DNA of 64,000 nt from Sulfurospirillum diekertiae (lineage in GTDB: Bacteria; Campylobacterota; Campylobacteria; Campylobacterales; Sulfurospirillaceae), in the NCBI RefSeq assembly GCF_002162315.1, contig NZ_CP021416.1, positions 1,376,207-1,440,206 on the forward strand, read 5' to 3'. The notes beneath the pieces are model-generated. The model saw nothing but the letters and a program-made list of their open reading frames with translations, was not told where the DNA came from and did not search any database. Positions 23,788-39,752 of this stretch are shown here, piece after piece. Within the stretch, counting starts at the first letter, position 1, and every line of letters starts with the position of its first letter. The translations under genes were made by a program, and so were the position numbers.

Positions 23788-24379
23788 GTGAATAAAAAAA
23801 TTCGAAAAAGTGAAAAAAATTTTGGATGCAGCATTACTGCTCTTTTCAACACGAGGTTTTTACGCCACAACGATTCCCGATATTGCAAAAGCTATGGGAA
23901 TGAGTGTTGGAAATCTCTACAATTATTTTTCTTCCAAAGAGGTTCTTGCTAAAGAAATCATTAAATACTCTTCCGATATTTTAGGTTCTGCTATACGTAC
24001 TGTCAACGAAGAAGCGGGGAGTGCAAAAGAAAAAATACGCAAAATTGTTGCGATTTATTTTGAAATGGCAACCTCGAAACCACAGCATATTAATTACTTT
24101 CTACGCGTTTATCTTGCCAATAAAGAGGTTTTTAAAGATGGTTGCGAAGGGATGCTTTGTGTCTCTTCTTTTGTCACAGAACTGATGATTTTTTTTGAAG
24201 AGGGTGTTGCTTCTGGTGAGCTTCGTAACCAAGATTTTTTTTCTGCATTTGGACTGTTTATGGGGTATCTTGGTGGTTTTGTTTTTCTTAATGGTGAAGG
24301 CGTATTGGAAAAAGATCTTAATTATTACGTCGATGATATTTCCCTTAACATTTATAATGCACTTAAAAATAGCCAATGA
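23788..24379 (+). CDS. TetR family transcriptional regulator, coupled to hupS (5' frameshift likely)
   Basis: About 195 residues. The N-terminal helix-turn-helix reads TTIPDIAKAMGMSVGNLYNYF, followed by SSKEVLAKEI; the C-terminal ligand and dimer domain is all-helical. A GTG at 23810 would open the intact frame but lacks a ribosome binding site. A GTG at 23788 has GAAGGA eight bases upstream and encodes MNKKIRKSEK, in another frame. Removing one A from one of the A-runs at 23794-23819 fuses the two. The last codons overlap the hupS ATG (ATGA), so the regulator and the HupSL hydrogenase are translationally coupled, pointing to a shared H2- or redox-related role. Ligand unknown. Confidence 0.82.
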
Positions 24380-25266
24380 AACACAAATCAACCATTGTTT
24401 GGCTTCAAGGTCTTACATGTAATGGCAACAGTCACTCTTTTTTGAATTACCCTCAGATGCCAAGTTTTGCCTCTTCATTTGAGATGATCTATCATCCTTT
24501 AATCTGTGGTGGACAGAGTTTTAAGACATTATTAGAGAGTCATGAGAAATTTGATTTTTTGATTTTAGAAGGGGCATTAAGCCATGATGAGCGTTTGCTT
24601 CAACGTTTTGGCATCCCTTTTTATGACATTCTTGATAATTTTGCGAGAAGAGCAAAACATATTATTTGTGCAGGTAGCTGTGCAAGCTTTGGTGGCATTT
24701 TCAGGCTTCGCGATCCTGAAAAAATTACGGGAGCTTTGTTTAGTGGTAAAGAGAAGGGTGGTTATTGGTTAGAAAAGAGCAATGTTGTTAATATCCCAGG
24801 TTGTCCATTGCATCCAAGATGGCTTGTTGAAACACTGTTCGCGTTACGAGATAGAGGCACACTCTTTTTAGATGAATTTTTGCGTCCAAAAGAGGTCTTT
24901 GCGTATCTTGCACATCATGGTTGTTTACGCAATGAGTATTTTGAATGGAAAGTGGATAGCAAACAGTTAGGCGAAAAAGAGGGGTGTTTGTTTTACGAAC
25001 ATGGTTGCCAAGGGCCTATGACTCATGCTAATTGCAATAAAATTCTTTGGAATGGTATTAGTTCCAAAACGAGAGCGGGTTCACCTTGCCTTGGATGTAC
25101 AGAATTTGACTTTCCTCGTCGCGCTCTGTTTGAAACACATAAAAATATGTCATTACCTCAAACACCTTTTGGTATCAGTAAACGTGCTTATTATACAGTT
25201 GCAGGTGTTGCTAAAAGTTTTAAAATAGACAGACTTGAAAAGAAGCTGATAGATGAAAATAACTAA
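24376..25266 (+). CDS. hupS: [NiFe]-hydrogenase small subunit, cytoplasmic HupS-type (group 2-like)
   Basis: A 296-residue iron-sulfur subunit without a Tat signal, so cytoplasmic. The proximal-cluster region is WLQGLTCNGNSHSF, in which the usual C-x-G-C has Asn for the second Cys, as I recall from cyanobacterial HupS. Other cluster ligands lie in AGSCASFGG, NIPGCPLHP, the HGCLRNEYFEW segment, EHGCQGPMTHANCN and SPCLGCTEFDFP. It relays electrons from the large subunit; the acceptor is unknown. It is preceded by a coupled TetR gene and overlaps hupL by 14 bases. The codon for the first cluster Cys lies inside a TTACATGTAA copy at 24413. Confidence 0.88.
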   Translation: MKHKSTIVWLQGLTCNGNSHSFLNYPQMPSFASSFEMIYHPLICGGQSFKTLLESHEKFDFLILEGALSHDERLLQRFGIPFYDILDNFARRAKHIICAGSCASFGGIFRLRDPEKITGALFSGKEKGGYWLEKSNVVNIPGCPLHPRWLVETLFALRDRGTLFLDEFLRPKEVFAYLAHHGCLRNEYFEWKVDSKQLGEKEGCLFYEHGCQGPMTHANCNKILWNGISSKTRAGSPCLGCTEFDFPRRALFETHKNMSLPQTPFGISKRAYYTVAGVAKSFKIDRLEKKLIDENN

Positions 25267-26596
25267 AGAGATTATCGAACGAATAGAGGGTGAAGCTACC
25301 TTAGAGCTTGAGTGGGACAACGAACAGGTCACCTTTGCCAAAATCAAATTTTTTAATTACCGTGGAATTGAAGAGATTTTGAAAAAGCGCCCTTTGCTCG
25401 ATGCATTAGCTTTAACGCCACGTGTATGCGGTATCTGTTCACATTCTCATGCTATCGCTTCAGTATTAGCGATTGAATCTATTTTTGAAAATCAAGGTGA
25501 ATCTTTACATGTAAGCCAAAAAGCCAAAGATATTCGTGAAATCGCACTGAACGCTGAGAAGATTCACAATCATATCAAATGGTATTTTTTCTCTATTTTG
25601 CCTGAACTCAAAAAGATTGCTGATTCAACGTATGAAGGGAATGCTTTTAAAGAGAAGCAGTGGTTTCAAGCGCAAAGTGCCATTATGGAAAGCCTAAAAA
25701 TGGGCGCTCATTTTACAGGTCAATGGCCTCATGGCTCTTTTGTAATGGCAGGCGGTGTGACGTGTGATCCACTCCAAAGTGATGTTGTAAGCGCAATTGG
25801 TTGTTTAGATTCTGTGATTTCATTTTGTGAAGAGCATTTTTATGGCATGCCTTTAGAAGAATTTTTGAGTTTTGATTCGGCTCTCCAAGTCATGTCAGTA
25901 CCTTCTGCACTCTCTTATGGCATTGATGAGATGCTCAAACTAGGATTTGATCGTTTAGGTAGAAGTTATGACCGCTTTTTAGCACTGGGAAAATCTTACC
26001 TATACGAAGGAAGCCTTAAAGCTTCCAAAACAGTTGTTCTAGGGGCAGATGTCAAATATGTACAGGAGAGTTTAGAACACACCTTCTTTGAAGATAAGCA
26101 CAAGGGGTATACTTATTCAAAAAGTGCTCAGTACAAAAAAAGCTATTGTGAAGTAGGGCCATTGGCACGTATGATGGTGGCAAAAGAGCCCTTGATGCGT
26201 GATTTTCATAGACGCTTTAAAGATGCAGCGCTCACACGCGTAGTAGCTCGTGCAGTAGAATGTGCCCATTTATTATCGCGTACCACGCAACTTCTCTCTA
26301 AGCTTAATCTAAATGAGCCCTCTTTTTATCCTCCCAAAAAAGATATTCACAGCATAAGTGGAGAGGGTGTAGGTATTGTTGAAGCACCAAGAGGAACGCT
26401 CATTCATCAGGTGAATGTTCGCAATGGAATCATTGAGTTATACAATATTATTACTCCTACTGTTTGGAATCTTGGAAATGGTAATCGTGAAAATCCTTCC
26501 ACCGCACAAAAGGCAATTATTGGTCTAAATTCATTTACCAAAGCCGATTTTATTCTGAAAAGTTTTGATGTATGCTCCGTCTGTACGACCCAATAA
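25253..26596 (+). CDS. hupL: [NiFe]-hydrogenase large subunit, cytoplasmic HupL-type with atypical C-terminus
   Basis: A 447-residue catalytic subunit. The N-terminal L1 motif, PRVCGICSHSHAIAS, supplies two of the four Ni-Fe cysteines. The C-terminal L2 motif is DVCSVCTTQ followed directly by stop. The two cysteines are kept, but the Pro of D-P-C and the closing His or Arg are missing, and there is no cleavable extension. Maturation without an endopeptidase is therefore predicted, as in H2-sensing hydrogenases. The gene overlaps hupS and ends the tetR-hupS-hupL operon. An energy-conserving or sensory function cannot be separated by sequence alone. A TTACATGTAA copy at 25505 encodes Leu-His-Val. 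Confidence 0.88.
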   Translation: MKITKEIIERIEGEATLELEWDNEQVTFAKIKFFNYRGIEEILKKRPLLDALALTPRVCGICSHSHAIASVLAIESIFENQGESLHVSQKAKDIREIALNAEKIHNHIKWYFFSILPELKKIADSTYEGNAFKEKQWFQAQSAIMESLKMGAHFTGQWPHGSFVMAGGVTCDPLQSDVVSAIGCLDSVISFCEEHFYGMPLEEFLSFDSALQVMSVPSALSYGIDEMLKLGFDRLGRSYDRFLALGKSYLYEGSLKASKTVVLGADVKYVQESLEHTFFEDKHKGYTYSKSAQYKKSYCEVGPLARMMVAKEPLMRDFHRRFKDAALTRVVARAVECAHLLSRTTQLLSKLNLNEPSFYPPKKDIHSISGEGVGIVEAPRGTLIHQVNVRNGIIELYNIITPTVWNLGNGNRENPSTAQKAIIGLNSFTKADFILKSFDVCSVCTTQ

Positions 26597-26838: not shown

Positions 26839-27996
26839 ATGGAACACGCTAAACTGTACGAAAGGCTTGCTGAGCGACTTAGCAATCTTGAGAAGTTCCC
26901 CCGTATTAAGGAGGACAAATCTATTGCGGCACTAATGGAAGAACATGGAATTAGCCGTAGAGATTTTATGAAGTGGGCAGCAGGTGTCACTGCAATGTTG
27001 TCTTTACCTTCAGAATTTACACCACTTATGGCGCAAGCTGCTGAATTAACAGATCGTTTGCCTGTTATTTGGTTGCATATGGCAGAATGTACGGGCTGTA
27101 GTGAGAGTTTGCTTCGAACAGACGCTCCAACAATCGATAGTTTGATTTTTGATCATATCTCATTAGAGTATCATGAAACTTTGATGGTTGCTTGTGGTTG
27201 GCAGGCTGAGCACAATTTAGAGAGTGCTATTGAAAAATATAAAGGTAAATACATTTTAATGGTTGAAGGTGGTATTCCTGCAGGAAGCAGTGAATTCTTC
27301 TTAACCGTTGGACCGCATGGCCAAACAGGTCAAAAAAGTGCACAAAAAGCAGCAGATTCTGCAGCAGCTATTTTTGCTATTGGCTCTTGTTCAAGTTTTG
27401 GTGGTATTCAAGCGGCTCATCCAAATCCTACCAATGCACAACCACTTAGTAAAGTAACCAATAAACCTGTTATTAATGTTCCAGGCTGTCCTCCAAGTGA
27501 GAAAAATATTGTCGGTAACGTACTTCACTATATTCTTTTTGGCACACTTCCAGCACTTGATGCATACAATCGTCCAAAATGGGCTTATGGTTTTAGAATT
27601 CATGACCTTTGCGAAAGACGTGGTCACTTTGACGCGGGCGAGTTCGTACAAGAATTTGGCGATGCTGGTGCAAAAAAAGGTTTCTGTCTTTATAAAGTAG
27701 GTTGTAAAGGTCCTTATACTTTTAATAACTGTTCACGTGAGAGATTTAACCAACATACTTCTTGGCCAGTTCAAGCAGGTCACGGCTGTATTGGCTGTTC
27801 AGAACCAGGTTTCTGGGACAATATGGGACCATTTGAAGAGCCATTAGGTGATAGACTTTATAAAACAGTTTATGGCGATGGTGCTGATAAAACTGCTGAT
27901 AAAGTTGGTGTTGCGCTTCTCACTGCAACTGCGGTAGGTATTGCGGCTCATGCGGCAATTGCTGCGGTTAAGGGCAGTGGAAAAACTGAAGAATAA
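26839..27996 (+). CDS. hydA: Membrane-bound [NiFe]-hydrogenase small subunit (Tat-exported)
   Basis: A 385-residue precursor. The twin-arginine motif SRRDFMKWAAG is at about residues 39-49 after a long helical n-region, followed by a hydrophobic stretch ending MAQAAEL. Cluster ligands lie in AECTGCSESLLR (proximal), GSCSSFGG, NVPGCPPSE, HDLCERRGHFDAGEF and VGCKGPYTFNNC, and in GHGCIGCSEPGFWD. A C-terminal helix (VALLTATAVGIAAHAAIAAV) anchors it in the membrane on the periplasmic side. It passes electrons from HydB to the cytochrome b HydC. This is the group 1 respiratory uptake hydrogenase known from Wolinella, Helicobacter and Campylobacter. Confidence 0.96.
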   Translation: MEHAKLYERLAERLSNLEKFPRIKEDKSIAALMEEHGISRRDFMKWAAGVTAMLSLPSEFTPLMAQAAELTDRLPVIWLHMAECTGCSESLLRTDAPTIDSLIFDHISLEYHETLMVACGWQAEHNLESAIEKYKGKYILMVEGGIPAGSSEFFLTVGPHGQTGQKSAQKAADSAAAIFAIGSCSSFGGIQAAHPNPTNAQPLSKVTNKPVINVPGCPPSEKNIVGNVLHYILFGTLPALDAYNRPKWAYGFRIHDLCERRGHFDAGEFVQEFGDAGAKKGFCLYKVGCKGPYTFNNCSRERFNQHTSWPVQAGHGCIGCSEPGFWDNMGPFEEPLGDRLYKTVYGDGADKTADKVGVALLTATAVGIAAHAAIAAVKGSGKTEE

Positions 27997-28011
27997 GAGA
28001 AGGATAAGTAA

Positions 28012-29760
28012 ATGAGTAAAAGAATCGTAGTAGATCCAATCACCAGAATTGAAGGACACTTAAGAGTTGAAGTTATTGTAGATGATAACAACGTTGTTAC
28101 AGAAGCATACTCTTCTTCAACACTTTGGAGAGGTATTGAAACTATCCTTAAAGGCAGAGATCCAAGAGATGCTGGTTTTATGGTACAAAGAATTTGTGGT
28201 GTTTGTACATACTCTCACTATAAAGCAGGTATTATGGCAGTTGAGAATGCTCTAGGAATTGAGCCTCCTCTTAATGCAAAACTAACACGTACATTGATGA
28301 ACAATGCACTTTTCTTGCATGATCACGTTGTACACTTCTATCATCTTCATGGACTTGATTGGGTTGATGTTGTTTCAGCGCTTAAAGCAGATCCACGTAA
28401 AGCTGCGGAAGAGGCATTTAAATACACAGACTCTCCTGTTGCATGCGGTGCAGACATCCTTATGGCAACTCAAAAAAGAGTAGCGGAATTTGTTAAAAAA
28501 GGAAATCTTGGACCATTCGCTAATGCGTATTGGGGACATGCAACCTACAAATTAACACCAGAGCAAAACTTAATTGCTGTTTCTCACTACCTTAAAGCAC
28601 TTGAACTTCAAAGAACTGCTGCACAAATGATGGCTATCTTTGGTGCAAAACAACCACATCCACAAAGCTTAACCGTTGGTGGTGTAACGTGTGTTATGGA
28701 TCTTCAAGACCCAGCTCGTTTGGGTGAATATATGACGAAATTTAAAGAGATGGCAGACTTTGTAAATCATGCTTACTATCCTGATGTTGTTATGGCTGGA
28801 CTTGCTTATTCAAAAGAGCCAAGTGTCACAGGTGGTTTGGGTGTTGCAAATCTCTTTACTGAAAAAGAGTTCCAAATTAATGCCAAAGACTTCTTGTTTG
28901 AGAGTGGTGTTATGATGGGTGAAGATGTGGTTAATTTAATCACTGGCAAACCATTTAAAGTTCAAACATTGGATGAGAGTAAAATCACTGAAGAAGCAAC
29001 ACGTTCTTGGTATAAAGATAACGCTGCATATCATCCATACGAGGGTCGTCAAGAGCCTAATTATACTGGCTTTAAAGATGCACAAACTGTTAATGATAAA
29101 GGTGAGCTTGCTGCAACTAAAGTTATTGATGAAAATGGTAAATATACATGGGTTAAAGCTCCTCGTTATGATGGTAAACCACTTCAAGTTGGACCATTGG
29201 CAAATATCGTTATTAACTATGCGCTTGGTAACAAACGCGTTAAAGTCGTCGTTGATAAATTCTTGAAAGATACAGGACTTCCTATTACTGCTGTAGCTTC
29301 AACACTCGGTCGAACAGCATGTCGTATGATTGAAGCCAAAGTTGTAGCTGATAACGGTATGGAAGCATTTACTTCATTGATTAATAATCTTAAAGTTGAT
29401 GATGCTACCTGTGCAAGCTATAAAATCGACAAAAATAAAGAGTACAAAGGTCGCTATATTGGACATGTTCCTCGTGGTGTTCTTAGTCACTGGGTTAAAA
29501 TCAAAAATGGCGTGATTGAAAACTACCAAGCAGTTGTTCCAACAACTTGGAATGCAAGTCCAAAAGACGCTAAAGGTGTTAGAGGATCTTATGAAGAGTC
29601 TTTAATTGGTTTAAAGATCACTGATCTTTCTCAACCGCTTGAAATTGTAAGAATCATCCACTCTTATGATCCATGTCTTGCATGTGCTGTACATGTAATG
29701 GATACAAAAGGGAATGAGATGAGCAGTTATAAGGTCAATGTTAACGGCGCGTCTTGCTAA
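28012..29760 (+). CDS. hydB: Membrane-bound [NiFe]-hydrogenase large subunit
   Basis: A 582-residue catalytic subunit with N-terminal RITRIEGHLRVEV-type signature (here DPITRIEGHLRVEV), L1 motif RICGVCTYSHYKAG and L2 motif DPCLACAVH. After the histidine, a 21-residue tail ending NGASC is present, to be removed by HydD once nickel is inserted. It oxidises H2 in the periplasm, carried out through the Tat system with HydA. It starts 15 bases after hydA, with AGAAGGA as ribosome binding site. A near-match of the iterated palindrome (GTACATGTAA) covers the codons of the cleavage-site His. Confidence 0.97.
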   Translation: MSKRIVVDPITRIEGHLRVEVIVDDNNVVTEAYSSSTLWRGIETILKGRDPRDAGFMVQRICGVCTYSHYKAGIMAVENALGIEPPLNAKLTRTLMNNALFLHDHVVHFYHLHGLDWVDVVSALKADPRKAAEEAFKYTDSPVACGADILMATQKRVAEFVKKGNLGPFANAYWGHATYKLTPEQNLIAVSHYLKALELQRTAAQMMAIFGAKQPHPQSLTVGGVTCVMDLQDPARLGEYMTKFKEMADFVNHAYYPDVVMAGLAYSKEPSVTGGLGVANLFTEKEFQINAKDFLFESGVMMGEDVVNLITGKPFKVQTLDESKITEEATRSWYKDNAAYHPYEGRQEPNYTGFKDAQTVNDKGELAATKVIDENGKYTWVKAPRYDGKPLQVGPLANIVINYALGNKRVKVVVDKFLKDTGLPITAVASTLGRTACRMIEAKVVADNGMEAFTSLINNLKVDDATCASYKIDKNKEYKGRYIGHVPRGVLSHWVKIKNGVIENYQAVVPTTWNASPKDAKGVRGSYEESLIGLKITDLSQPLEIVRIIHSYDPCLACAVHVMDTKGNEMSSYKVNVNGASC

Positions 29761-29780
29761 AAGCGAAAGGGAGTCTAACA

Positions 29781-30458
29781 ATGAAAAGAAATGTAGAATT
29801 TGAGTTCTCAGCAGGGCTTCGTTGGACGCACTGGCTAAGGGCAATTGCTATTTTTGTATTAACGGTGACAGGGTTTTATTTGGCCTATGTATTCATCGCT
29901 CCTGAATCATCAGATGAGCCTATCCTCTTCTTGAATGCAAAGTTCAGAATGTGGCATGAAATTGCAGGGTTTTTATTGATTGCAATTACACTTTACAAAA
30001 CGTACCTTTTTTGCCTTGATGGTATTAGTTCAAAAGAGAGAGTATCGTTTGTAGATTTCATCAGTCCGAAGATATGGTTTCAACAGCTTAAATATTACCT
30101 TTTTATGGGAGAACATCCTCATTTAAAAGGTGTCTATAATCCGTTGCAATTTATCGCTTATGTGGGACTTTATGCAATGATTTTTATCATCAGCTTAACA
30201 GGTCTCATTTTGTATGTCAATTGTTATCAAGGTGGCGGTATTGGTCTCTTCTTATATGACTATATGCGTCCAATCGAAGCAATGATGGGTGGACTCGCAA
30301 TGGTTAGAGAAATTCACCACATTGTTATGTGGGGTATTTTGATCTTCTTACCAATTCATATCTATATGGCAATCTTTAACTCAATCATGGGTAAAGAGGG
30401 CTCTTTGGATGCGATTTTCAGTGGTTATAAGTTTCTTAAACACGATCCAAAACACTAA
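29781..30458 (+). CDS. hydC: Hydrogenase cytochrome b subunit
   Basis: A 225-residue di-heme membrane protein with four main hydrophobic helices. Candidate heme ligands are the His residues in LRWTHWLRA, MWHEIAGF and EIHHIVMWGILIFLPIHIYM. It transfers electrons from HydA to menaquinone and, in Wolinella, contributes to membrane potential generation. The ATG at 29781 (MKRNVEFEF) has AAGGGAG seven bases upstream; an earlier in-frame codon at 29754 lies inside hydB and is rejected. Confidence 0.95.
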   Translation: MKRNVEFEFSAGLRWTHWLRAIAIFVLTVTGFYLAYVFIAPESSDEPILFLNAKFRMWHEIAGFLLIAITLYKTYLFCLDGISSKERVSFVDFISPKIWFQQLKYYLFMGEHPHLKGVYNPLQFIAYVGLYAMIFIISLTGLILYVNCYQGGGIGLFLYDYMRPIEAMMGGLAMVREIHHIVMWGILIFLPIHIYMAIFNSIMGKEGSLDAIFSGYKFLKHDPKH

Positions 30459-30470
30459 GAGAGTTTTTAC

Positions 30471-31010
30471 TTGAAAGTGTTGATTTTAGGCATTGGCAAT
30501 GTGATGTTCTCCGACGAAGGCGTCGGAGTTCATCTTTGCCGTCTTGTTGAACAAAAATATGCGTTTTCTTCTCCCGAACATACCCTTACCTTTATTGATG
30601 GTGGTACACTAGCGGAGCGTTTAATTCCCATTATTGCTGAGTATGACTATGTCATTGTATTAGATTGTGTTGATACAAGAGATGGAGAAATTGGAGATGT
30701 TTATTTCTTCGATTTTGAAAATGTTCCTAATACAATCACATGGCAAGGGAGTGTTCATGAAGTCGAGATGCTTCAAACACTTAATATGATGGATATGGTA
30801 GGAGATCGTCCTCCTACAAAAATTATTGGTATAATTCCAGAAGTTATAGAAGATACAACGTTACAACTTACAGATGCTGTCGTCAAAGGCAGTGGTATTA
30901 TGGAAAATGTTTTACTAAAACATTTGAGTGAACTTGGATTTACATATCAGCAAATCAGTGATATTGACATCCAAAGTGTGGCAAATACGTCCTGTTTGGG
31001 GGATCGATGA
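30471..31010 (+). CDS. hydD: Hydrogenase maturation endopeptidase
   Basis: A 179-residue HyaD/HybD-type protease. It starts with VLILGIGNVMFSDEGVGVHL, which contains the first nickel-contacting acidic residue, has YVIVLDCVDT with the second acidic residue and GSVHEVEMLQTL with the conserved His. It removes the C-terminal peptide from HydB. The start is TTG at 30471; no better codon lies near the first strand. The stop overlaps the hydE start by four bases. Confidence 0.94.
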   Translation: MKVLILGIGNVMFSDEGVGVHLCRLVEQKYAFSSPEHTLTFIDGGTLAERLIPIIAEYDYVIVLDCVDTRDGEIGDVYFFDFENVPNTITWQGSVHEVEMLQTLNMMDMVGDRPPTKIIGIIPEVIEDTTLQLTDAVVKGSGIMENVLLKHLSELGFTYQQISDIDIQSVANTSCLGDR

Positions 31011-32680
31011 TTTTAGCATTTGAGTTTAATTATATATCACATAATGGTATTTTAGAAAATTTATTGAAAGACATTGCAAATGATTTTGGTATTGTACATA
31101 AAATTATACGTAAAGAATCGATTGTAACACTGTTTGTTGATGCCGATGAAGTTCGTTTAGGCGCTTTTGCAGACACTCTTTCTTCTTCGCTTCCATTGTC
31201 TATCTTTTTTAAGTCTTCCAGTGTTGAAGTTTTAGAAAGCATGTCTGAGGAAGAAGAAGTATTGCCATCAATGGCATATACCGTAGAATTTACACCTAAA
31301 ATTTTAGCTTCAGTGGATGCACCAAGTTCTCCTCAGTATCTTTCTCCTTTTGTTGTTGTACCAAAAGATGCGTCTATTCATCTTGTACATGAGGGGAAAA
31401 ATCTTTTACATGTAAACATGACAGAAGGCTATGAATCGCTTTATGAAAAAGTTTCTGAACTGATTGTTGCAGGTGAAAATATAGCCATCCAAACTAAAAA
31501 TGGCCATTTTGTTTTTGGCAAAATTGAAAACATCTCTGCATGTTCTCATGTTGTATTTCCTGAAGTGATTGCAACGGATTTATCGGTTGTTGAGCGTATG
31601 GTTGTCAGTAGAGAAAATGAGATCAAAGCGCTTGCCTCTTTAGAGCGCCCTTCAATTCGTTTTAAAGTAAATGCACTGTTCGCACAAAAAGAGATTTTTC
31701 AAGAAGCTCGCGTCATGTTAAGACTTGCAGATGATCTTTTCTTGTATCAACTCTCTAAACGACTCTTTGCAAAAGGGGTTCATTTCCTTTTTAAAGCTTC
31801 TCCTAAAGAGTGTCAAAGTCTGTACAGCGTTGATTATGAACAAACTTTGAAAGCGCTAGAGCCATTAGTGGTAAGTGTCCTTGAAAATGGGACTATTTTA
31901 ATTGTTCAAGGTAAAAGTTATGCTTCTGAGGCGCTCAAAGGAAGTTTGAAAAAATTTGATGAACCTTCCCATGCAGCATTGGCTTCTATTTTACAAGAGC
32001 ATAAGCTTTTTGATACAGCGTTGAGCTGTTTTTATTTTAGTCGAACTCATAATGATCGTGTCATGCACTACTCCAAAGAAAATGGCATGCTTAATCTTGT
32101 GGAAATTTTACTGCCAAGTTCATTTACTGAGCTTTTTGCAGAAATTGAGAGAAGTAGTCCTAGTGCTGAGCGTCTGGTTGCAAGTTATAAGGAACAGTTT
32201 CCTGAACTGTACGAAAAAGCGATTCATACAGTTATTCCAAACACATTACCAAAGAGTATTTATTCCCTTTGGAAAATTGTAGCAGTCGTACTAGGCATTA
32301 GCGATAATTTTGATCGCGCTGCTGAACAACTCATTGAAAATGCCGAAGATTTTGGTGGTCAAAAAGGTCCACGAATTGACTATTATTTGGAAAAAGAGGA
32401 TGCACTCAGTTCTGATTTGAATTATGTTAGATTGCTCCGCAGTGGTATGAGTTACAAACTCGCTGGAACGGACACAATAACATTGAGTTTTGGTTGTATG
32501 GAAAGTCTCTCTTTTTTCCTCTCCGATATGGCTGATTCTCACAAAGATAATCTTACTTCAAGTAAAATTGCTTTGTGTGGTTCACTGTTTGGCTATAAAC
32601 GTTTTACAGAGATGCTTTCAAAAAACATCAAGCCAAATCATACGATCTGTTTGAATAAAGAATTGCCGATTGATCAGTAA
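31007..32680 (+). CDS. hydE: Hydrogenase-associated protein HydE, a HypF-like paralogue without catalytic motifs
   Basis: A 557-residue cytoplasmic protein between hydD and hypF, in the position named hydE in Wolinella and Helicobacter; its biochemical role is not settled. I see similarity to the neighbouring HypF. LWKIVAVVLGISDNFDRAAE in HydE parallels LFDAVAVLCGMEGNVSYDGE in HypF, and the C-terminal SKIALCGSLFGYKRFTEML parallels YPIVLGGGVFQNRTLMEQI. The acylphosphatase loop and zinc-finger cysteines of HypF are missing. A scaffold or accessory role in HydAB maturation is inferred. A TTACATGTAA copy at 31406 encodes Leu-His-Val. Confidence 0.78.
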   Translation: MILAFEFNYISHNGILENLLKDIANDFGIVHKIIRKESIVTLFVDADEVRLGAFADTLSSSLPLSIFFKSSSVEVLESMSEEEEVLPSMAYTVEFTPKILASVDAPSSPQYLSPFVVVPKDASIHLVHEGKNLLHVNMTEGYESLYEKVSELIVAGENIAIQTKNGHFVFGKIENISACSHVVFPEVIATDLSVVERMVVSRENEIKALASLERPSIRFKVNALFAQKEIFQEARVMLRLADDLFLYQLSKRLFAKGVHFLFKASPKECQSLYSVDYEQTLKALEPLVVSVLENGTILIVQGKSYASEALKGSLKKFDEPSHAALASILQEHKLFDTALSCFYFSRTHNDRVMHYSKENGMLNLVEILLPSSFTELFAEIERSSPSAERLVASYKEQFPELYEKAIHTVIPNTLPKSIYSLWKIVAVVLGISDNFDRAAEQLIENAEDFGGQKGPRIDYYLEKEDALSSDLNYVRLLRSGMSYKLAGTDTITLSFGCMESLSFFLSDMADSHKDNLTSSKIALCGSLFGYKRFTEMLSKNIKPNHTICLNKELPIDQ

Positions 32681-34889
32681 ATTTCGTCTGATTTATCATA
32701 TAGAAGGTATTGTCCAAGGGGTTGGTTTTCGCCCCTTTGTCTATACACTTGCCTTACGCTTTCATTTAAAAGGTTTTGTGCTTAACAATTCTAAAGGTGT
32801 CATCATTGAGATAGAAGGATTTGAAGAGAGCCTTGATTCGTTTGAACAGGCTTTGTTTAAAGAACTTCCTCCACTTGCGCGCATTGATTTCTGGCAAAAA
32901 AATAGGCTTACATGTAAAAATGATACACGCTTCGAAATTCGACAAAGTGATGAAGCAAGTACAAAATCTTCTCTTGTATTACCAGATATGTCCATTTGTG
33001 ATGATTGTCTGAAAGAATTGTATGATCCAAACAACAGACGCTATCACTACTTTTTCATCAACTGTACACATTGTGGACCTCGCTATTCCATTATCAAAAC
33101 TGTTCCATATGATCGTCCATACACTTCAATGCAACCCTTTGTAATGTGTGAAGCGTGCCAAAGTGAATACACAAATCCTCTTGATCGCCGCTATCACGCG
33201 CAACCTATCAGCTGTCCAACATGCGGCCCAACACTCTCTTTGTGTTCCATTAATGGAGAACTATTGGCAACAAATGAAGCGGCGATTGTTAAATTAGCGG
33301 ATTTGATTAATGTTGGGCATATTGTAGCACTCAAAGGCATGGGAGGTTTTCATCTCATTTGTGATGCCACAAGCGACAGGGTGTTAGCGAGCTTGAGAGA
33401 GCGTAAACACAGACCTTCCAAACCGTTTGCTGTTATGTTTAAAACTATAGAAGCGATCAAAGAAGAGTGTATTTTAAGTGCTCAAGAAGAAGAGGGTATT
33501 TGCTCTCTGCTTCGCCCGATTGTTCTTGTAAAGCGCAATGTTAAGGCTTCTAAAATCAGTGGACTCATTGCCCCTCGCATCGATCGTCTTGGTGTTTTCT
33601 TACCTTATACACCTTTACATGTAATGCTTTTTGAGTACCTCAAAAACCCTATCGTGGCAACCAGTGCCAATCGCTCTGGTGAGCCCATTATTAGCGAAGC
33701 AACTGTTTTAAAACAAAAGCTTCATGACGTTGTGGAGTATTATCTGGATTATAACCGTGAAATAGTCAACTCCAGTGATGACAGTGTTTTACAATACCTT
33801 GGTGATAAAACGCTTTTGATGCGCTCTTCTCGTGGTATTGCTCCAAAGAGCTTTCGAGTTGATTCATCGGATGAGCGGAAAATCTTAGCCGTAGGCGCAC
33901 ATCAAAAAAATGCGATTGCTATCTATCTTAATCACCAAATTATTGTGAGTCCTTATATTGGTGATTTGGATAATATTGCCTCGAATGAACTATTTGAAAA
34001 GATGATAGAGCGTTTTTCACGATTTTATGATTTTACACCCGATCTGATCGTCGGCGATTTGCATCCAAATTATGTATCAACACAGTGGGCAAAAAGGCAA
34101 AATATTCCTTTTGTTCAGGTGCAGCATCACTATGCACATATTCTCTCTGCTATGTGTGAACATAAACTGAGCGGAAAAGTGTTAGGCATCGCATGGGATG
34201 GTACGGGGTATGGTGATGATGGTACGATTTGGGGTGGTGAGTTTTTAGTGTGTGATCCTAGTGGTTATGAACGTGTATGTTTTTTTGAACCTTTTCCTCT
34301 TTTGGGTGCAGATGCGAGCATTAAAGAGATTAAACGCATTTTAGCTTCGCTTCTGTGGGATGTATTGGGTGACGAGGCTGATGCATTGTTATTAGACTAT
34401 TTTGATGAAAAGGCACTCAAACGTCTCAAACAAATTTACACCAAAAAGATTAATTCACCCTTATGCTCATCAGTAGGAAGACTCTTTGATGCCGTTGCCG
34501 TTTTATGTGGAATGGAAGGAAATGTAAGTTATGACGGAGAAAGTGGCTTGCTTATTGAAGCTCTGTATGATCCTGCCATTACAGATCGCTATACATTTGA
34601 AATAGACGATAAAATGATTCGTTATAAACCTATGTTTGCTCAAATGCTTCACGATAAAGAACCACGTCTAATTGCTTCAAAATTTATCAATACATTGGTC
34701 GAAATGGCTCTTACCATAAGCCATCGTTACACTTATCCAATCGTTCTTGGAGGTGGAGTGTTTCAAAATCGCACACTCATGGAACAAATACTTCAAAATG
34801 TCACACAACCTCTCTATTTTCCGTTACAATTAGCAATCAATGATGGCGGAATTTGTGTTGGACAGATCTACAAATCACTTCAAAAGTAA
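32670..34889 (+). CDS. hypF: Carbamoyltransferase HypF
   Basis: A 739-residue protein. Domains in order are: acylphosphatase-like (GIVQGVGFRPFVY), two zinc fingers (CDDCLKELYDP with CTHCGPRYS; CEACQSEY with CPTCGPT), a YrdC-like domain (GHIVALKGMGGFHLICDAT, RKHRPSKPFAVMF), and a Kae1-like domain with the VQHHYAHILSAM metal site and GIAWDGTGYGDDGTIWGGE. It makes thiocarbamoyl groups on HypE from carbamoyl phosphate for cyanide ligand synthesis. The TTG start overlaps the hydE 3' end by 11 bases. TTACATGTAA copies at 32908 and 33615 encode Thr-Cys and Leu-His-Val. Confidence 0.97.
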   Translation: MISKFRLIYHIEGIVQGVGFRPFVYTLALRFHLKGFVLNNSKGVIIEIEGFEESLDSFEQALFKELPPLARIDFWQKNRLTCKNDTRFEIRQSDEASTKSSLVLPDMSICDDCLKELYDPNNRRYHYFFINCTHCGPRYSIIKTVPYDRPYTSMQPFVMCEACQSEYTNPLDRRYHAQPISCPTCGPTLSLCSINGELLATNEAAIVKLADLINVGHIVALKGMGGFHLICDATSDRVLASLRERKHRPSKPFAVMFKTIEAIKEECILSAQEEEGICSLLRPIVLVKRNVKASKISGLIAPRIDRLGVFLPYTPLHVMLFEYLKNPIVATSANRSGEPIISEATVLKQKLHDVVEYYLDYNREIVNSSDDSVLQYLGDKTLLMRSSRGIAPKSFRVDSSDERKILAVGAHQKNAIAIYLNHQIIVSPYIGDLDNIASNELFEKMIERFSRFYDFTPDLIVGDLHPNYVSTQWAKRQNIPFVQVQHHYAHILSAMCEHKLSGKVLGIAWDGTGYGDDGTIWGGEFLVCDPSGYERVCFFEPFPLLGADASIKEIKRILASLLWDVLGDEADALLLDYFDEKALKRLKQIYTKKINSPLCSSVGRLFDAVAVLCGMEGNVSYDGESGLLIEALYDPAITDRYTFEIDDKMIRYKPMFAQMLHDKEPRLIASKFINTLVEMALTISHRYTYPIVLGGGVFQNRTLMEQILQNVTQPLYFPLQLAINDGGICVGQIYKSLQK

Positions 34890-35380: not shown

Positions 35381-35398
35381 TCTTTACATGTAAAGATT
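35379..35398. terminator. 20-bp perfect palindrome at the nikR / transposase-like convergence
   Basis: AATCTTTACATGTAAAGATT is a perfect palindrome centred on a TTACATGTAA copy and followed by TTTTC on the plus strand. It overlaps the last base pairs of nikR and contains the stop codon of the convergent gene. With no unpaired loop, hairpin folding would open the central four bases. It may act as a bidirectional terminator built from the iterated motif. Confidence 0.5.
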
Positions 35399-36067
35399 TT
35401 TCTTCCATAGCGTCTCTAAAATGAGACGCTGTTCTTCTTGAGTATAATTAAATTTAAACTCCGCTTCTTTTAGATAATAGATAAAATTCTCTTTACTCAC
35501 ACCTTTAAAGTGATCCATCCAGCTCTCTAAAAATTTCCAAAAGCGTGTTAAGACGTTGTCAAAACTCTCGTAGTGCGCAACTTTATGCTGGTTAAGATAG
35601 CGTGCATAGGTCTCTTTTTCGATGGAATTTTCATCTAAATTTTTCAGGTGTGCAAATTGATCTGGGAGTAAGAGGGTGTGAATAGAGTCGCCGTACACCA
35701 TACTTAAAATACCGATAGCATCGAAAAGATATTTATTTTTTCCTCTTTTACATGTAGGAAGGTAATAGTATTCGTCATACTGTGAAAACGTCTGCGTTTG
35801 TTCTGCATAAAGAGCTTCACAGTGACTTATCAGTAAAAGACGTAGTTTTTGATATTTTTTTGCGATGGTAAGATAGTTCAATCCTAAAAGCGTAGCACAT
35901 TCATACGCACTGTTATTATCGATAAAACACTCCAAAATAGTCATCTCTTGTGCATACTTTACATAGCTAAATGTTCGTTTACATGTAACGCATCGGCATT
36001 GCGTATTAGAGACGAAATAAAGTGCTTTGTTCCCGCAAAAAATGCACTGCTTTTGATCTGTTTTCAT
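35384..36067 (-). CDS. IS1595 (ISXO2-like) transposase-derived protein inside the hydrogenase locus
   Basis: A 227-residue protein. The N-terminus has a zinc ribbon, CIFCGN and CRCVTCKRTF, then a helix-turn-helix (AYECATLLGLNYLTIAKKYQ). Next comes a DDE-type start, SQYDEYYYLPTCKRGKNKYL. The C-terminus has FWKFLESWMDHFKGVSKENF followed by YLKEAEFKFNY, which resembles the closing block of IS1595 transposases. The second catalytic Asp region is not recognisable, and no terminal inverted repeats or target duplications are visible around the gene. It looks like an immobile, possibly domesticated copy, convergent to nikR and divergent from hypB. A TTACATGTAA copy (35979) covers a zinc-ligand Cys codon. 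Confidence 0.72.
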   Translation of the reverse strand: MKTDQKQCIFCGNKALYFVSNTQCRCVTCKRTFSYVKYAQEMTILECFIDNNSAYECATLLGLNYLTIAKKYQKLRLLLISHCEALYAEQTQTFSQYDEYYYLPTCKRGKNKYLFDAIGILSMVYGDSIHTLLLPDQFAHLKNLDENSIEKETYARYLNQHKVAHYESFDNVLTRFWKFLESWMDHFKGVSKENFIYYLKEAEFKFNYTQEEQRLILETLWKKNLYM

Positions 36068-36169: not shown

Positions 36170-37021
36170 ATGTGTAAAGATTGCGGTTGTTCAATTACTC
36201 CTACTCAATGGTCAGCGGCACATGCGCACGAACACGATCATGATGGTCACACGCATAGTCATTCGCATGATCATGACGACCATACCCATCACGATCATCC
36301 TCATGCACATGATCATGATCACCATGAGCACAAAAATCATGATGAAATTCATGCCAATCCTCAATTAAATGACAAAAAAACCATTGCTGTCATTACGAAG
36401 ATTTTGGATGCGAACGACACACAAGCATCGCACAATAGAGCGCATTTTGAAGAGCATGGTGTTTTGGCGATCAATCTAATGAGCAGTCCCGGCAGTGGAA
36501 AAACAACACTTTTGGAAGCAACGATTGATACAAAAGAGATCAAACTAGCAGTTATAGAAGGCGATCTTGAGACCAATCAAGATGCCGATCGTATCACTGC
36601 AAAGGGGGCATTGGCTCATCAAATCACTACAGGTCAAGCGTGTCATTTGGATGCGTTTATGGTGCACGAAGGGCTTCATCATTTACCGATTGATGGGCTT
36701 GATGTTGTGTTTATCGAAAACGTGGGCAATTTGGTGTGTCCTGCTAGTTATGATGTTGGAAGTCACCTTAATGTCGTACTTCTTTCCGTTCCAGAAGGCG
36801 ATGATAAACCTGCCAAGTATCCTGTAATGTTCCGCAGCGCTGATCTGTTTTTAATTACGAAATGCGACCTGTTGCCATATTTTGATTTTAATGTTGAAAA
36901 AGCAATTCGTGAGGCTCGAAAGCTCAATCCAAAAGTCGATGTCATCGAGATAGACAGTAAGTCTGGTAAAGGGATTGATCAGTGGATCAATTACTTAAAA
37001 ATGAAAAAAGCATTGAGGTAA
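36170..37021 (+). CDS. hypB: Hydrogenase nickel incorporation GTPase HypB with His-rich N-terminus
   Basis: A 283-residue protein. It starts MCKDCGC, a motif that binds nickel with high affinity in other HypB proteins. Residues about 17-62 are a histidine-rich nickel-storage stretch with more than 20 His. The G domain has MSSPGSGKTTLLEATI (P-loop), VIEGDLETNQDADRI and FIENVGNLVCPASYDVG, with KCDLLPYFDF as the guanine-binding motif. It loads nickel into the hydrogenase large subunits together with HypA. It is first in hypBCDEA. Confidence 0.97.
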   Translation: MCKDCGCSITPTQWSAAHAHEHDHDGHTHSHSHDHDDHTHHDHPHAHDHDHHEHKNHDEIHANPQLNDKKTIAVITKILDANDTQASHNRAHFEEHGVLAINLMSSPGSGKTTLLEATIDTKEIKLAVIEGDLETNQDADRITAKGALAHQITTGQACHLDAFMVHEGLHHLPIDGLDVVFIENVGNLVCPASYDVGSHLNVVLLSVPEGDDKPAKYPVMFRSADLFLITKCDLLPYFDFNVEKAIREARKLNPKVDVIEIDSKSGKGIDQWINYLKMKKALR

Positions 37022-37023
37022 TC

Positions 37024-37293
37024 ATGTGTTTATCCATACCTTCTAAAGTCATCGAAATTGATGAAAATAATTATGCAACCGTCGATACCATGGGTGTTAA
37101 GCGTAAAGTCACGCTTGATTTGATTGCCGAAGAAGTGAACATTGGCGATTACGTGCTGATTCACGTGGGATTTGCGATGAATAAAATCAGCAAAGAACAT
37201 GCCGAAGATAGTATTGCGGCTTATAATGAGATCGCTGAAGCGATGCGTGATGGTGAGATCAGTGATGAAGAAGGAAACAGTAATTATGTTTGA
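37024..37293 (+). CDS. hypC: Hydrogenase assembly chaperone HypC
   Basis: An 89-residue chaperone starting MCLSIPSKV with the essential Cys2. It has a beta-barrel core (VKRKVTLDLIAEEVNIGDYVLIHVGFA). It binds HypD and the large subunit during delivery of Fe(CN)2CO. The ATG at 37024 lies two bases after the hypB stop; an earlier in-frame start would place Cys internally and is rejected. It overlaps hypD by eight bases. Confidence 0.95.
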   Translation: MCLSIPSKVIEIDENNYATVDTMGVKRKVTLDLIAEEVNIGDYVLIHVGFAMNKISKEHAEDSIAAYNEIAEAMRDGEISDEEGNSNYV

Positions 37294-38410
37294 AGTGGAT
37301 CTCATTGAAGGATTTCGCGACCCTGAACATATGAAGGCTTTGGCGGCACTCATTAAAAAAGAGTGCAAATCCAAAATCAATATTATGGAAGTGTGTGGCG
37401 GTCATACACATACGATTATGAAGTTTGGGCTTTCTCAAATTTTGCCTGATTTGATCGAATTTGTTCATGGCCCTGGATGTCCAGTGTGCATTATGCCTAA
37501 AGAGCGGATTGATCATGCCATAGCATTAGCAAGTATGCCCAATACCATTTTAGCCACGCTTGGCGATATGATACGCGTCCCAGGCAGTAAAACCTCTTTG
37601 CAAAAACTTCGCGCCGAGGGTAAAGATATACGTTCACTTTATTCGCCGTTGGATGTCATTAAAATTGCGCAGGAAAATCCTGATAAAAACGTGGTTTTTT
37701 TCGCCATTGGTTTTGAAACCACAACGCCGATGAGTGCGGTTTTGATGCAACAAGCCATCGCCCATAAACTGACCAATGTCTTTTTTCACATCAACCATGT
37801 CACCGTGCCTGAAGCCGTAGAGGCGATTATGGGAGATGGAAATGCCCTTATTGATGCGTTTCTTGGACCTTCGCATGTGAGTGTCATCACAGGGTATAAA
37901 ATCTATGAGCCGATCGCTGAAAAATACCACACGCCAATCGTGGTTGCAGGGTTTGAACCCACCGATGTGATGGAGTCGGTTTTGCGCATTGTGCGCCAAG
38001 TGAATGAGGGCAAAAGTGTTGTTGACAATGAATATGCCAGAGCCGTTTCACGCGAAGGCAATCTCAAAGCGCAAGAGCTTATCAATACCTATTTTGAAAA
38101 ACGTGATCACTTTAGATGGCGTGGTATTGGTGATATCCCCAAAAGTGCGTTGAAGCTTAAAGCAGAATATGCTGCTTTTGACGCTGAGATTGTGTTTGAT
38201 GCAGTGTTGCCTAAAACAGAACTTAATGACCATAAAATGTGCATTTGCGGTGAGATTCTCAAAGGTCGCGCCAAACCGTTTGACTGCAAAGTTTTTGGCA
38301 AAGCATGCACCCCAACCAATCCAATGGGTTCGTGTATGGTTTCGAGCGAAGGGGCGTGTTCGGCGTACTTTAAATATGGAAAATTGAACCTCAAAGGAGC
38401 AAGGGCGTGA
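37286..38410 (+). CDS. hypD: Hydrogenase formation protein HypD
   Basis: A 374-residue iron-sulfur scaffold. Motifs are EVCGGHTHTIMKFGL, VHGPGCPVCIMPK and AIGFETTTPMSAVL. The [4Fe-4S] cysteines lie in the C-terminal KMCICGEILKG, KVFGKACTP and MGSCMVSSEGACSAYFKY segments. It assembles the Fe(CN)2CO group with HypC and HypE. The start at 37286 (MFEVDLIEGFRDP) overlaps hypC, indicating translational coupling; longer in-frame readings upstream run through hypC and are rejected. Confidence 0.96.
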   Translation: MFEVDLIEGFRDPEHMKALAALIKKECKSKINIMEVCGGHTHTIMKFGLSQILPDLIEFVHGPGCPVCIMPKERIDHAIALASMPNTILATLGDMIRVPGSKTSLQKLRAEGKDIRSLYSPLDVIKIAQENPDKNVVFFAIGFETTTPMSAVLMQQAIAHKLTNVFFHINHVTVPEAVEAIMGDGNALIDAFLGPSHVSVITGYKIYEPIAEKYHTPIVVAGFEPTDVMESVLRIVRQVNEGKSVVDNEYARAVSREGNLKAQELINTYFEKRDHFRWRGIGDIPKSALKLKAEYAAFDAEIVFDAVLPKTELNDHKMCICGEILKGRAKPFDCKVFGKACTPTNPMGSCMVSSEGACSAYFKYGKLNLKGARA

Positions 38411-39411
38411 GTAAAAAGATACTTCTCTCTCACGGAGGTGGCGGTGAAGAGACCCAAAACCTTATTAAAGAGCTATTTTTTAAACATTTTGATAACGAAA
38501 TTTTATTGCGTATGGAAGATGCTGCAAGCCTTGTGATGAATGACCATAAAATTGCATTTACAACTGACTCTTTTGTTGTTTCACCGCTTTTTTTTAAGGG
38601 TGGAAATATTGGTAAGCTTGCGATTGCGGGAACGGTGAATGATCTTTCGATGATGGGGGCAAAGCCTCGTTATATGACCTGTTCTTTTATGATTGAAGAG
38701 GGGTTTTTATATTCTCACCTTGAAGAGATTGTTATCACGATGCGTGATGAGATGGCAAAAAGCGGTGTTAAAATTGTTGCTGGTGATACCAAAGTAGTAC
38801 CAAAAGGTGGGGTTGATGGACTTTTCATTAACACAGCTGGTATTGGTGAGATCATGTATGAAAATATTTCTGCTCATAACTTAGAAGAGGGTGATTGTAT
38901 CATCGTTTCTAATGAAATTGGCAATCACGGCGCCTGTATCTTAGCAACCCGCGAAGAGATAGAGCTGGAGAGTGATCTTCAAACCGATTGTGCAAGTTTA
39001 TGGAAACCTGTTGAAGCGCTTATTGATGCAGGTGTGAAGATTCATGCGCTCAGGGATGCGACGAGAGGAGGGCTCAGTGCGGTTTTGAATGAATGGGCTG
39101 AAACTTCAAAGGTGTGCATCGAAGTCGATGAGGCAAAAATTCCTGTGGCGCAAGAGGTCAAAGGTGTTTGTGAGCTTCTCGGTTTTGAACCGTATGAATT
39201 TGCCAATGAAGGAACCATGGTGATTTGTTTGCCTCAAAGTGAAGCAGTAAAAGCACTTGAGGTCCTCAAGAAGTTCCCTGAAACAGCAAAAAGTGCCATA
39301 ATAGGAAAGGTGAGCAACACCTTTACATGTAAAGTTGTTTTACATACGCCTTGGGGGTCAGAGCGCTTTTTAGAACCACCTAAAGGTGAGTTACTTCCGA
39401 GGATTTGCTAA
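38407..39411 (+). CDS. hypE: Carbamoyl dehydratase HypE
   Basis: A 334-residue PurM-like ATPase. It starts with LLSHGGGGEETQNLI, has TTDSFVVSPLFFKGGNIGKL and GDTKVVPKGGVDG, and ends with the invariant PRIC. Its terminal cysteine receives and dehydrates the carbamoyl group to thiocyanate. The GTG start overlaps the hypD stop by four bases, and the stop overlaps the hypA ATG. A TTACATGTAA copy at 39323 encodes Thr-Cys. Confidence 0.97.
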   Translation: MSKKILLSHGGGGEETQNLIKELFFKHFDNEILLRMEDAASLVMNDHKIAFTTDSFVVSPLFFKGGNIGKLAIAGTVNDLSMMGAKPRYMTCSFMIEEGFLYSHLEEIVITMRDEMAKSGVKIVAGDTKVVPKGGVDGLFINTAGIGEIMYENISAHNLEEGDCIIVSNEIGNHGACILATREEIELESDLQTDCASLWKPVEALIDAGVKIHALRDATRGGLSAVLNEWAETSKVCIEVDEAKIPVAQEVKGVCELLGFEPYEFANEGTMVICLPQSEAVKALEVLKKFPETAKSAIIGKVSNTFTCKVVLHTPWGSERFLEPPKGELLPRIC

Positions 39412-39752
39412 TGCATGAGTTTTCCATCGTTAACGCCCTTTTAGAGATGTGCGAAAAAAACGCAAAAGAGCATAATGCGACAAAAATCACTAAAGTTGAA
39501 ATTAAAATAGGAAAACTCAGTGGTGTTGAACCCTATTTATTGCAAACGGCATTTGATACCTTTAAAGAAGAGACCATTTGTGCTGAGGCAGAATTTATCG
39601 TTCATCTGCAAGAAATTGTCATTCATTGTGAAAATTGTCACAATGAAGTAACGCTCACACACAATGAATTTGTTTGCCCTACTTGTAGCAGCACTGATTT
39701 ACGCGTCATCGATGGAGAAGAGATGTACCTCATGCATCTTGAAATGGAGTAA
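39411..39752 (+). CDS. hypA: Hydrogenase nickel-insertion protein HypA
   Basis: A 113-residue protein. MHEFSIV carries the His2 nickel ligand, and the zinc site is CENC plus CPTC at about residues 73-93. With HypB it inserts nickel; in Helicobacter relatives it also serves urease. The ATG at 39411 is required because nickel binding needs His at position 2, so the in-frame codon at 39405 is not used. It ends the hypBCDEA unit. Confidence 0.96.
   Translation: MHEFSIVNALLEMCEKNAKEHNATKITKVEIKIGKLSGVEPYLLQTAFDTFKEETICAEAEFIVHLQEIVIHCENCHNEVTLTHNEFVCPTCSSTDLRVIDGEEMYLMHLEME

Follow-up and report, generated by a model that had tools for sequence, protein, structure and literature searches.

HypF (TIGR00143; structures 3vti, 3vth, 4g9i and 3tsq), the carbamoyltransferase of [NiFe] hydrogenase maturation, is built from an acylphosphatase domain, a zinc-finger region, a YrdC domain and a Kae1 domain, in this order. 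HyaE and HyaF are hydrogenase-specific accessory proteins of Pseudomonadota. HoxV and HupK are also named as hydrogenase accessory proteins in the excerpted text of a 2025 review (PMC12134894). For the hydE gene of Helicobacter pylori, the excerpt of PMC7695850, citing Benoit 2004, states that mutants lost hydrogenase activity, that nickel gave no rescue and that urease was normal; the last two observations point away from a role in nickel supply. The literature excerpts describe the function of hydE as unknown or as incompletely understood, and no paper was found that calls the gene HypF-like. Here we describe HydE of Sulfurospirillum diekertiae, encoded in a stretch of 64,000 nucleotides (contig NZ_CP021416.1, positions 1,376,207 to 1,440,206; the whole stretch is termed the window), as a protein derived from HypF over its full length and probably a pseudoenzyme. 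The radical SAM protein HydE of [FeFe] hydrogenases shares only its name with window HydE, in which no radical-SAM family match (Pfam, NCBIfam) and no CxxxCxxC motif were found. The excerpt of PMC4794192 states that all eleven Sulfurospirillum genomes encode the [FeFe] maturase HydE and that the full set HydE, HydF and HydG is present in only three; through the clash of names, this count of HydE was probably made from the HydE of [NiFe] operons.

HydE is HypF-derived by homology over its whole length, and we regard this identity as firm. BLASTP of window HydE against window HypF gave nothing significant (best E 1.5), phmmer against PDB sequences gave nothing usable, and the only Pfam match of window HydE, in a listing to E 10, is HypF_C_2 over residues 424-555 (E 0.14; 12.4 bits, below the cut-off of 27). 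Since the likeness is not significant between single sequences and is significant between family profiles, profiles are needed to see it. The hhalign comparison of 50 HydE rows with 20 HypF rows (hhalign's count), with window HypF placed as the first row, returned a probability of 99.5% and E 2.9e-23 over 519 collinear columns, from the acylphosphatase domain through the C-terminus. Controls with HydA, HydB, HydC, HydD, HypB, HypD, HypE, the second large subunit of the window and reversed HypF all remained at or below 0.3% probability. In the domain-wise comparison each part of HydE matches its HypF counterpart alone (Table 1), all other combinations being at or below 0.4%. The first-pass annotation, made from the letters of the window, had taken HydE for a HypF paralogue adjoining HypF, and had based this on two pairs of similar segments. 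The profile match and the fold bear out the paralogy, the two open reading frames (ORFs) do adjoin, and hhalign places both segment pairs exactly opposite each other. The expected Kae1-like C-terminal half is found as well, but the likeness had been drawn too narrowly, since it spans the entire HydE.

Sequences of an intermediate kind are provided by HydE2, a second HydE lineage of 636-686 amino acids (aa) that is paired with a second HydABCD type (L042, 657-2579 (-); L059-L070). HydE2 belongs to the same family as HydE1 by profile (E 2.6e-55) and holds the same operon place; it is nearer to HypF than HydE1 is, with E of 1e-22 to 4e-35 in hidden Markov model comparison and an intact first zinc finger. 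With window HypF as a lone query, a 641-aa HydE2 is retrieved at E 6e-17, along with several HydE1 whose E values are 3e-6 to 6e-5. The HydE2 alignment has 17 members, each of which matches Pfam HypF_C_2 (E <=0.05), and 13 of them match the HypF finger. In a 45-row HydE alignment HypF_C_2 is matched by 28 rows, the HypF finger by 9, and TIGR00143 by 17 at E <=0.01 in a table made without cut-offs. Window HypF scores 786 bits against TIGR00143 (cut-off 466); NCBIfam returned 0 families for window HydE, which thus lies outside TIGR00143, the family of the active carbamoyltransferase.

The AlphaFold model of window HydE (predicted local distance difference test, pLDDT, 93.3; predicted template modelling score, pTM, 0.90) has the HypF fold. 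The Foldseek search of the PDB has HypF in each of its first nine rows, and TsaD/Kae1 structures come next; the best row is 3vti_A, from the HypE-HypF complex (E 1e-21, TMq 0.70). VIA-align 2 aligned 516 of the 557 residues of the model, spanning 1-557, with 3vti_A (Z 20.4, root mean square deviation 4.8), and the best non-HypF row had Z 15.1 over 180 residues. Sua5/YrdC structures are present among the rows, and residues 1-80 of the model show the order strand-helix-strand-strand-helix-strand. The HydE2 model (pLDDT 88.1) aligned with 4g9i_A over 601 residues (Z 29.7). HydE thus shares with HypF the domain order, the fold over these 516 residues and the genetic neighbourhood. Convergence or chance, to which the BLASTP result and the Pfam match under the cut-off might point, is refuted by the collinear profile match, the clean controls, the intermediate sequences and the fold match, and is left with next to no probability.

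Unlike HypF, HydE lacks the checked active-site positions, the finger cysteines, most of the first Kae1 subdomain and the C-terminal Asp motif. Residues were compared in an alignment of 33 HypF, 13 long HydE2, 5 "short HydE2" and 51 HydE1 sequences; the short group includes one HydE1, as L072 was put there by a score rule and is placed with HydE1 by the tree. Among the 93 HypF-invariant columns, long HydE2 keeps 24 in at least 80% of its sequences, including eight finger cysteines, short HydE2 keeps 8 and HydE1 keeps 7. Arg21 and Asn39 of the acylphosphatase domain, Lys246, Arg248 and Lys251 of the YrdC KxRxxKP stretch, SAN, and the DGTG loop are each present in 33/33 HypF and gone in HydE1, where the Arg21 column holds Glu in 39/51 and the Asn39 column Arg or Lys in 44/51. 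The C-terminal Asp725, found in 32/33 HypF (one gap), is also missing from HydE1. In the Kae1 HHxxxH motif, the first His pair is gapped in 48/51 HydE1 and the last His is Ala, Gln or Ser in 41/51. We take the acylphosphatase Arg and Asn, the YrdC motifs, HHxxxH, the C-terminal Asp and DGTG to have catalytic or ligand roles in HypF. KGPRIDY and MSYKLAG are HydE family-specific segments within the Kae1-like domain. All four cysteines of finger 1 are present in 13/13 long HydE2 and 13/51 HydE1, and window HydE has no zinc-finger Cys pairs. With the checked positions replaced or deleted, no partial reaction of HypF would be expected of HydE, which, judged by these residues, has very probably lost the HypF activities. 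The early statement that HydE is without acylphosphatase and zinc-finger motifs is correct for the motifs and not for the fold, as residues 1-80 match the acylphosphatase domain and the finger region is degenerate (Table 1). We also note that the HypF of L072 (2372-6865 (-)) has 1498 aa, its domains being split by several long low-complexity inserts rich in Asn, Ser, Ala and Gln.

The ratio of nonsynonymous to synonymous substitution rates is 0.096, 0.109 and 0.117 for window HydE against three relatives, close to the values for HypF (0.092, 0.085 and 0.076), which indicates that HydE is constrained by purifying selection and is not decaying. Pro63, Glu213, Pro215, Ser482 and Gly525 are conserved in 69/69 HydE rows, Ser65 in 68/69 and Glu499 in 63/69; Ser482, Ser65 and Glu499 differ from the usual HypF residues. 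The word "degenerate", applied to HydE at the outset, therefore fits the HypF reaction alone, and otherwise does not suit a protein under purifying selection with invariant residues of its own. These three family-wide residues could be thought to mark a new active site, in a remodelled Kae1 or YrdC pocket that catalyses a different step. We find this very improbable, as the nucleotide and metal motifs of HypF are gone in window HydE and the conserved residues could be structural or serve in binding. Slightly less probable again is that Ser482, Asp458, Glu499 and Glu213 form a new conserved site in the vacated HypF channel, which would handle a small molecule of cofactor assembly, for example by holding or passing a diatomic ligand. 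The carbonyl ligand would be included, although nothing points to CO in particular; its anoxic origin is called unresolved in the excerpt of the 2025 review (PMC12134894).

A tree of 78 rows groups HydE in a single clade that falls inside the HypF sequences of Campylobacterota and has a stem of 2.26 changes per column. The approximately unbiased (AU) test, made on 62 of the 78 rows after removal of the long-branch HydE rows L052 and L054 and 14 further rows, rejected a clade of all Campylobacterota HypF that excludes HydE (p 0.0186). An old duplication of HypF within Campylobacterota is favoured by these phylogenies as the origin of HydE; the long HydE stem may leave room for long-branch attraction. 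The duplication is older than the split of HydE1 and HydE2, and by its sequence HydE2 appears to be a surviving intermediate state between HypF and HydE1. A tandem duplication followed by loss of catalysis had been suggested for this locus: the AU test favours a duplication and the lost residues bear out the second step, but the duplication is old and no local tandem event in the S. diekertiae genome. HydE2 is also found on plasmids of Sulfurovum mangrovi and Sulfurimonas paralvinellae, with both genes annotated "hypothetical protein". Window HydE matched 2 of 72,556 records of the plasmid collection, both from Campylobacterota. Long HydE2 matched 126 records; among the 20 matches listed, two cover at least 80% of the query, the same two Campylobacterota records, and the other 18 cover at most 44%, the annotated ones being labelled HypF. 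A single-protein scan of genome contigs with HydE found six loci, all close to Sulfurospirillum.

The distribution of HydE is tied to one hydrogenase type, that with a HydB-type large subunit. A total of 298 Campylobacterota genomes were searched with profiles of HydE and HydB, and the two listings were crossed by eye. Presence of HydE was set at profile E <=1e-30, a chosen limit (HypF itself scored no better than ~1e-12 in the genomes checked), and that of HydB-type subunits at best E <1e-80. By these limits HydE occurs in 272 genomes and a HydB-type large subunit in 278; HydE accompanies 271 of the 278 HydB-positive genomes versus 1 of the 20 HydB-negative ones, neither gene being present in 19. 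The seven HydB-only genomes comprise one with a split hydE, one with a 380-aa HydE, four with a hydrogenase of another build and G201 (L083), whose large subunit is more distant. The four (L077, L078, L080, L081) have a long small subunit, a HydB-like large subunit, no hydC and no hydE. Their small subunit has 803-808 aa in L077 (9118-11538 (-)) and L080 (6875-9298 (-)) and a similar length in L078 and L081; in L077, Pfam shows that the NiFe small subunit is fused to an N-terminal Pyr_redox_2 domain (FAD/NAD-type oxidoreductase) and a BFD-like [2Fe-2S] domain. This type is possibly a soluble, pyridine-nucleotide-linked hydrogenase; nothing relevant was found in the literature on hydrogenase subunit fusions. 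Two genomes with no HydB (G338 and G367) contain hydE remnants with stop codons.

Gene order reflects the same pairing. Among the loci drawn, 38/42 HydE copies lie directly 3' of HydD on the same strand and the other four (L063, L067, L069, L070) directly follow HydC. Two hydrogenases are encoded in each of four loci (L037, L038, L040, L042), where either one has a HydD and a HydE to itself, and in the three loci compared the identity between copies is 21-23% for HydE and 52-53% for HydB. There is thus one HydE copy per HydABC-type hydrogenase, unlike HypF. One genus has three loci (L101-L103) where hydE is separated from hydABCD and is the immediate neighbour of hypF at the start of the hyp cluster, so that linkage alone does not explain its retention. 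This placement, the frequent adjacency of hydE and hypF and the general experience that pseudoenzymes commonly regulate their active paralogue would agree with HydE being an allosteric partner or regulator of HypF, for example in a HypF-HydE heterodimer that tunes carbamoyl transfer to HypE. Such a role is decidedly improbable, as the two HydE copies pair by hydrogenase, yet there is one hypF at the locus, and a regulator acting on HypF in general would lack such specificity for a hydrogenase. HypF is, moreover, present in 14 of the 26 genomes without strong HydE and hence does not need HydE.

Taken as a whole, the statement that HydE is a neofunctionalised HypF pseudoenzyme, acting as a hydrogenase-specific factor that couples the Hyp machinery to one large subunit, is on balance the probable one. 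HydE would have been kept over the full HypF length as a disarmed scaffold that no longer cleaves carbamoyl phosphate, forms carbamoyl-adenylate or transfers the carbamoyl group to HypE, and would have been remodelled into a maturation factor dedicated to HydABC, the cytochrome-b-linked [NiFe] hydrogenases of Campylobacterota. The unchanged, shared HypF would charge HypE, while the HypF-like body of HydE would bind the Hyp side (HypE or the HypC-HypD scaffold) plus the cognate HydB precursor, and direct or license delivery of Fe(CN)2CO to its HydB before cleavage by HydD. This adaptor mechanism, for which we infer the partners and the step, is offered tentatively, with somewhat less than an even chance.

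Several points weigh against the coupling role. The binding of HydE to HypE, HypCD or HydB is itself something that we infer. HydE and HydB distances are correlated (r 0.84, 39 sequences each; 0.83 with the HypF distance removed, 32 sets). Inheritance together in one operon would by itself be expected to give such a correlation, which is no proof of contact. HydE is shortened to 380 aa beside an apparently complete hydABCD in L079 (6956-8095) and hydE is split into two ORFs in L082 (9322-11078), which suggests that full-length HydE may not always be needed. HydE occurs without a HydB match in G385, where hydC, hydD and hydE are contiguous. HydE-positive hydrogenases are the HydC-bearing ones, the HydC-less type of L077, L078, L080 and L081 having no HydE, so that the distribution is explained just as well by a role in export or in attachment to the membrane; the excerpt of PMC4992972 says that HydD and HydE act in membrane localisation. 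The strongest rival, accordingly, is that HydE arose from HypF as a factor for proofreading or targeting, which binds the HydAB precursor and delays its twin-arginine translocation (Tat) export, or aids its membrane attachment, until it is matured, leaving the Fe(CN)2CO step untouched. We presume that a pure export defect would spare cytoplasmic activity. The hydE mutants of H. pylori lose hydrogenase activity altogether (excerpt of PMC7695850) and the fold of HydE is that of a cofactor-synthesis enzyme, which makes the rival unlikely.

The accessory proteins of Pseudomonadota (HyaE/HyaF, HoxV, HupK) resemble HydE in that their genes lie within or close to hydrogenase operons and that they serve in maturation. 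Window HydE has no Pfam match, to E 10, to HyaE (PF07449) or HyaF/HupH (PF04809); HoxV and HupK were not compared directly. HupH_C/HyaF exceeded its cut-off in 0/149 Campylobacterales genomes. The HyaE search (PF07449) matched 41/44 genomes, mostly with 22-29 bits over the same short stretch (~48-101), and matched the controls from unrelated bacteria too, which looks like general thioredoxin similarity.

The window carries a complete [NiFe] hydrogenase and maturation block (Table 1), in which the names of hydABC and of hypB, C, D, E and A are our assignments by similarity and recall. The stop of hydD and the start of hydE overlap by 4 bases (ATGA), and hydE and hypF by 11 nt. The gene at the hydD-equivalent place is annotated as a HyaD/HybD family endopeptidase, and the C-terminus of HypE is PRIC. 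The second large subunit (25253-26596) ends 3 residues past its last CxxC (CSVCTTQ), hence without a cleavable C-terminal peptide, and has no HydD or HydE of its own alongside; presumably it resembles sensor-type hydrogenases. The ORF at 35384-36067 (-) encodes a 227-aa protein that has Cys pairs close to the N-terminus and matches no Pfam family. Several other loci have ORFs of 213-242 aa in a similar position, with hypF/nikR on one side and hypB on the other, the likeness being one of place and length.

Table 1. Hydrogenase and maturation features of the window, with the parts of HydE and their HypF counterparts
Feature	Positions	Strand	Basis or remark
Two-gene hydrogenase	24376-26596		ORF list
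hydA, hydB, hydC (small subunit, large subunit, cytochrome b; presumed names)	26839..30458	+	ORFs; order conserved across loci
hydD, hydrogenase maturation endopeptidase	30471..31010	+	directly 5' of hydE
hydE, full-length HypF-derived probable pseudoenzyme, 557 aa, ATG start	31007..32680	+	
HydE residues 1-80, acylphosphatase-like, HypF Arg/Asn active site gone	31007..31246	+	hhalign 94.9%, E 4.5e-8
HydE residues 81-120, HypF zinc-finger remnant, no Cys pairs left	31247..31366	+	hhalign 68%, E 4.8e-5
HydE residues 121-305, YrdC/Sua5-like, substrate-site residues lost	31367..31921	+	hhalign 96.7%, E 4.2e-10
HydE residues 306-557, truncated Kae1-like, metal and nucleotide motifs lost	31922..32677	+	hhalign 96.5%, E 7.8e-10
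HydE first segment, LWKIVAVVLGISDN	32267..32308	+	opposite HypF LFDAVAVLCGMEGN in hhalign
HydE second segment, ALCGSLFGYKRFTEML	32570..32617	+	opposite HypF VLGGGVFQNRTLMEQI in hhalign
hypF, complete carbamoyltransferase, 739 aa, TTG start	32670..34889	+	TIGR00143 and Pfam HypF domain families
HypF segment LFDAVAVLCGMEGN, pairing with first HydE segment	34482..34523	+	hhalign
HypF segment VLGGGVFQNRTLMEQI, pairing with second HydE segment	34743..34790	+	hhalign
hypB, hypC, hypD, hypE, hypA, remaining maturation genes (presumed names)	36170..39752	+	ORFs

The recognition of HydE as a disarmed HypF gives hydE a place in the known maturation pathway and makes a vague accessory gene testable, through its binding to HypE, HypCD or HydB and through the iron group of HydB in the absence of HydE. 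The 380-aa HydE of L079 and the split hydE of L082 are natural tests of how much of HydE is needed. The consequence for annotation is immediate, as two long HydE relatives are currently filed as "hypothetical protein", and the finding would bear on the heterologous production of HydABC-type hydrogenases. For [NiFe] maturation in Campylobacterota, it describes how the enzyme for the cyanide ligands would have given rise by duplication to hydrogenase-specific pseudoenzymes of two forms, the long HydE, which keeps the zinc fingers, and the short HydE, which has mostly lost them.

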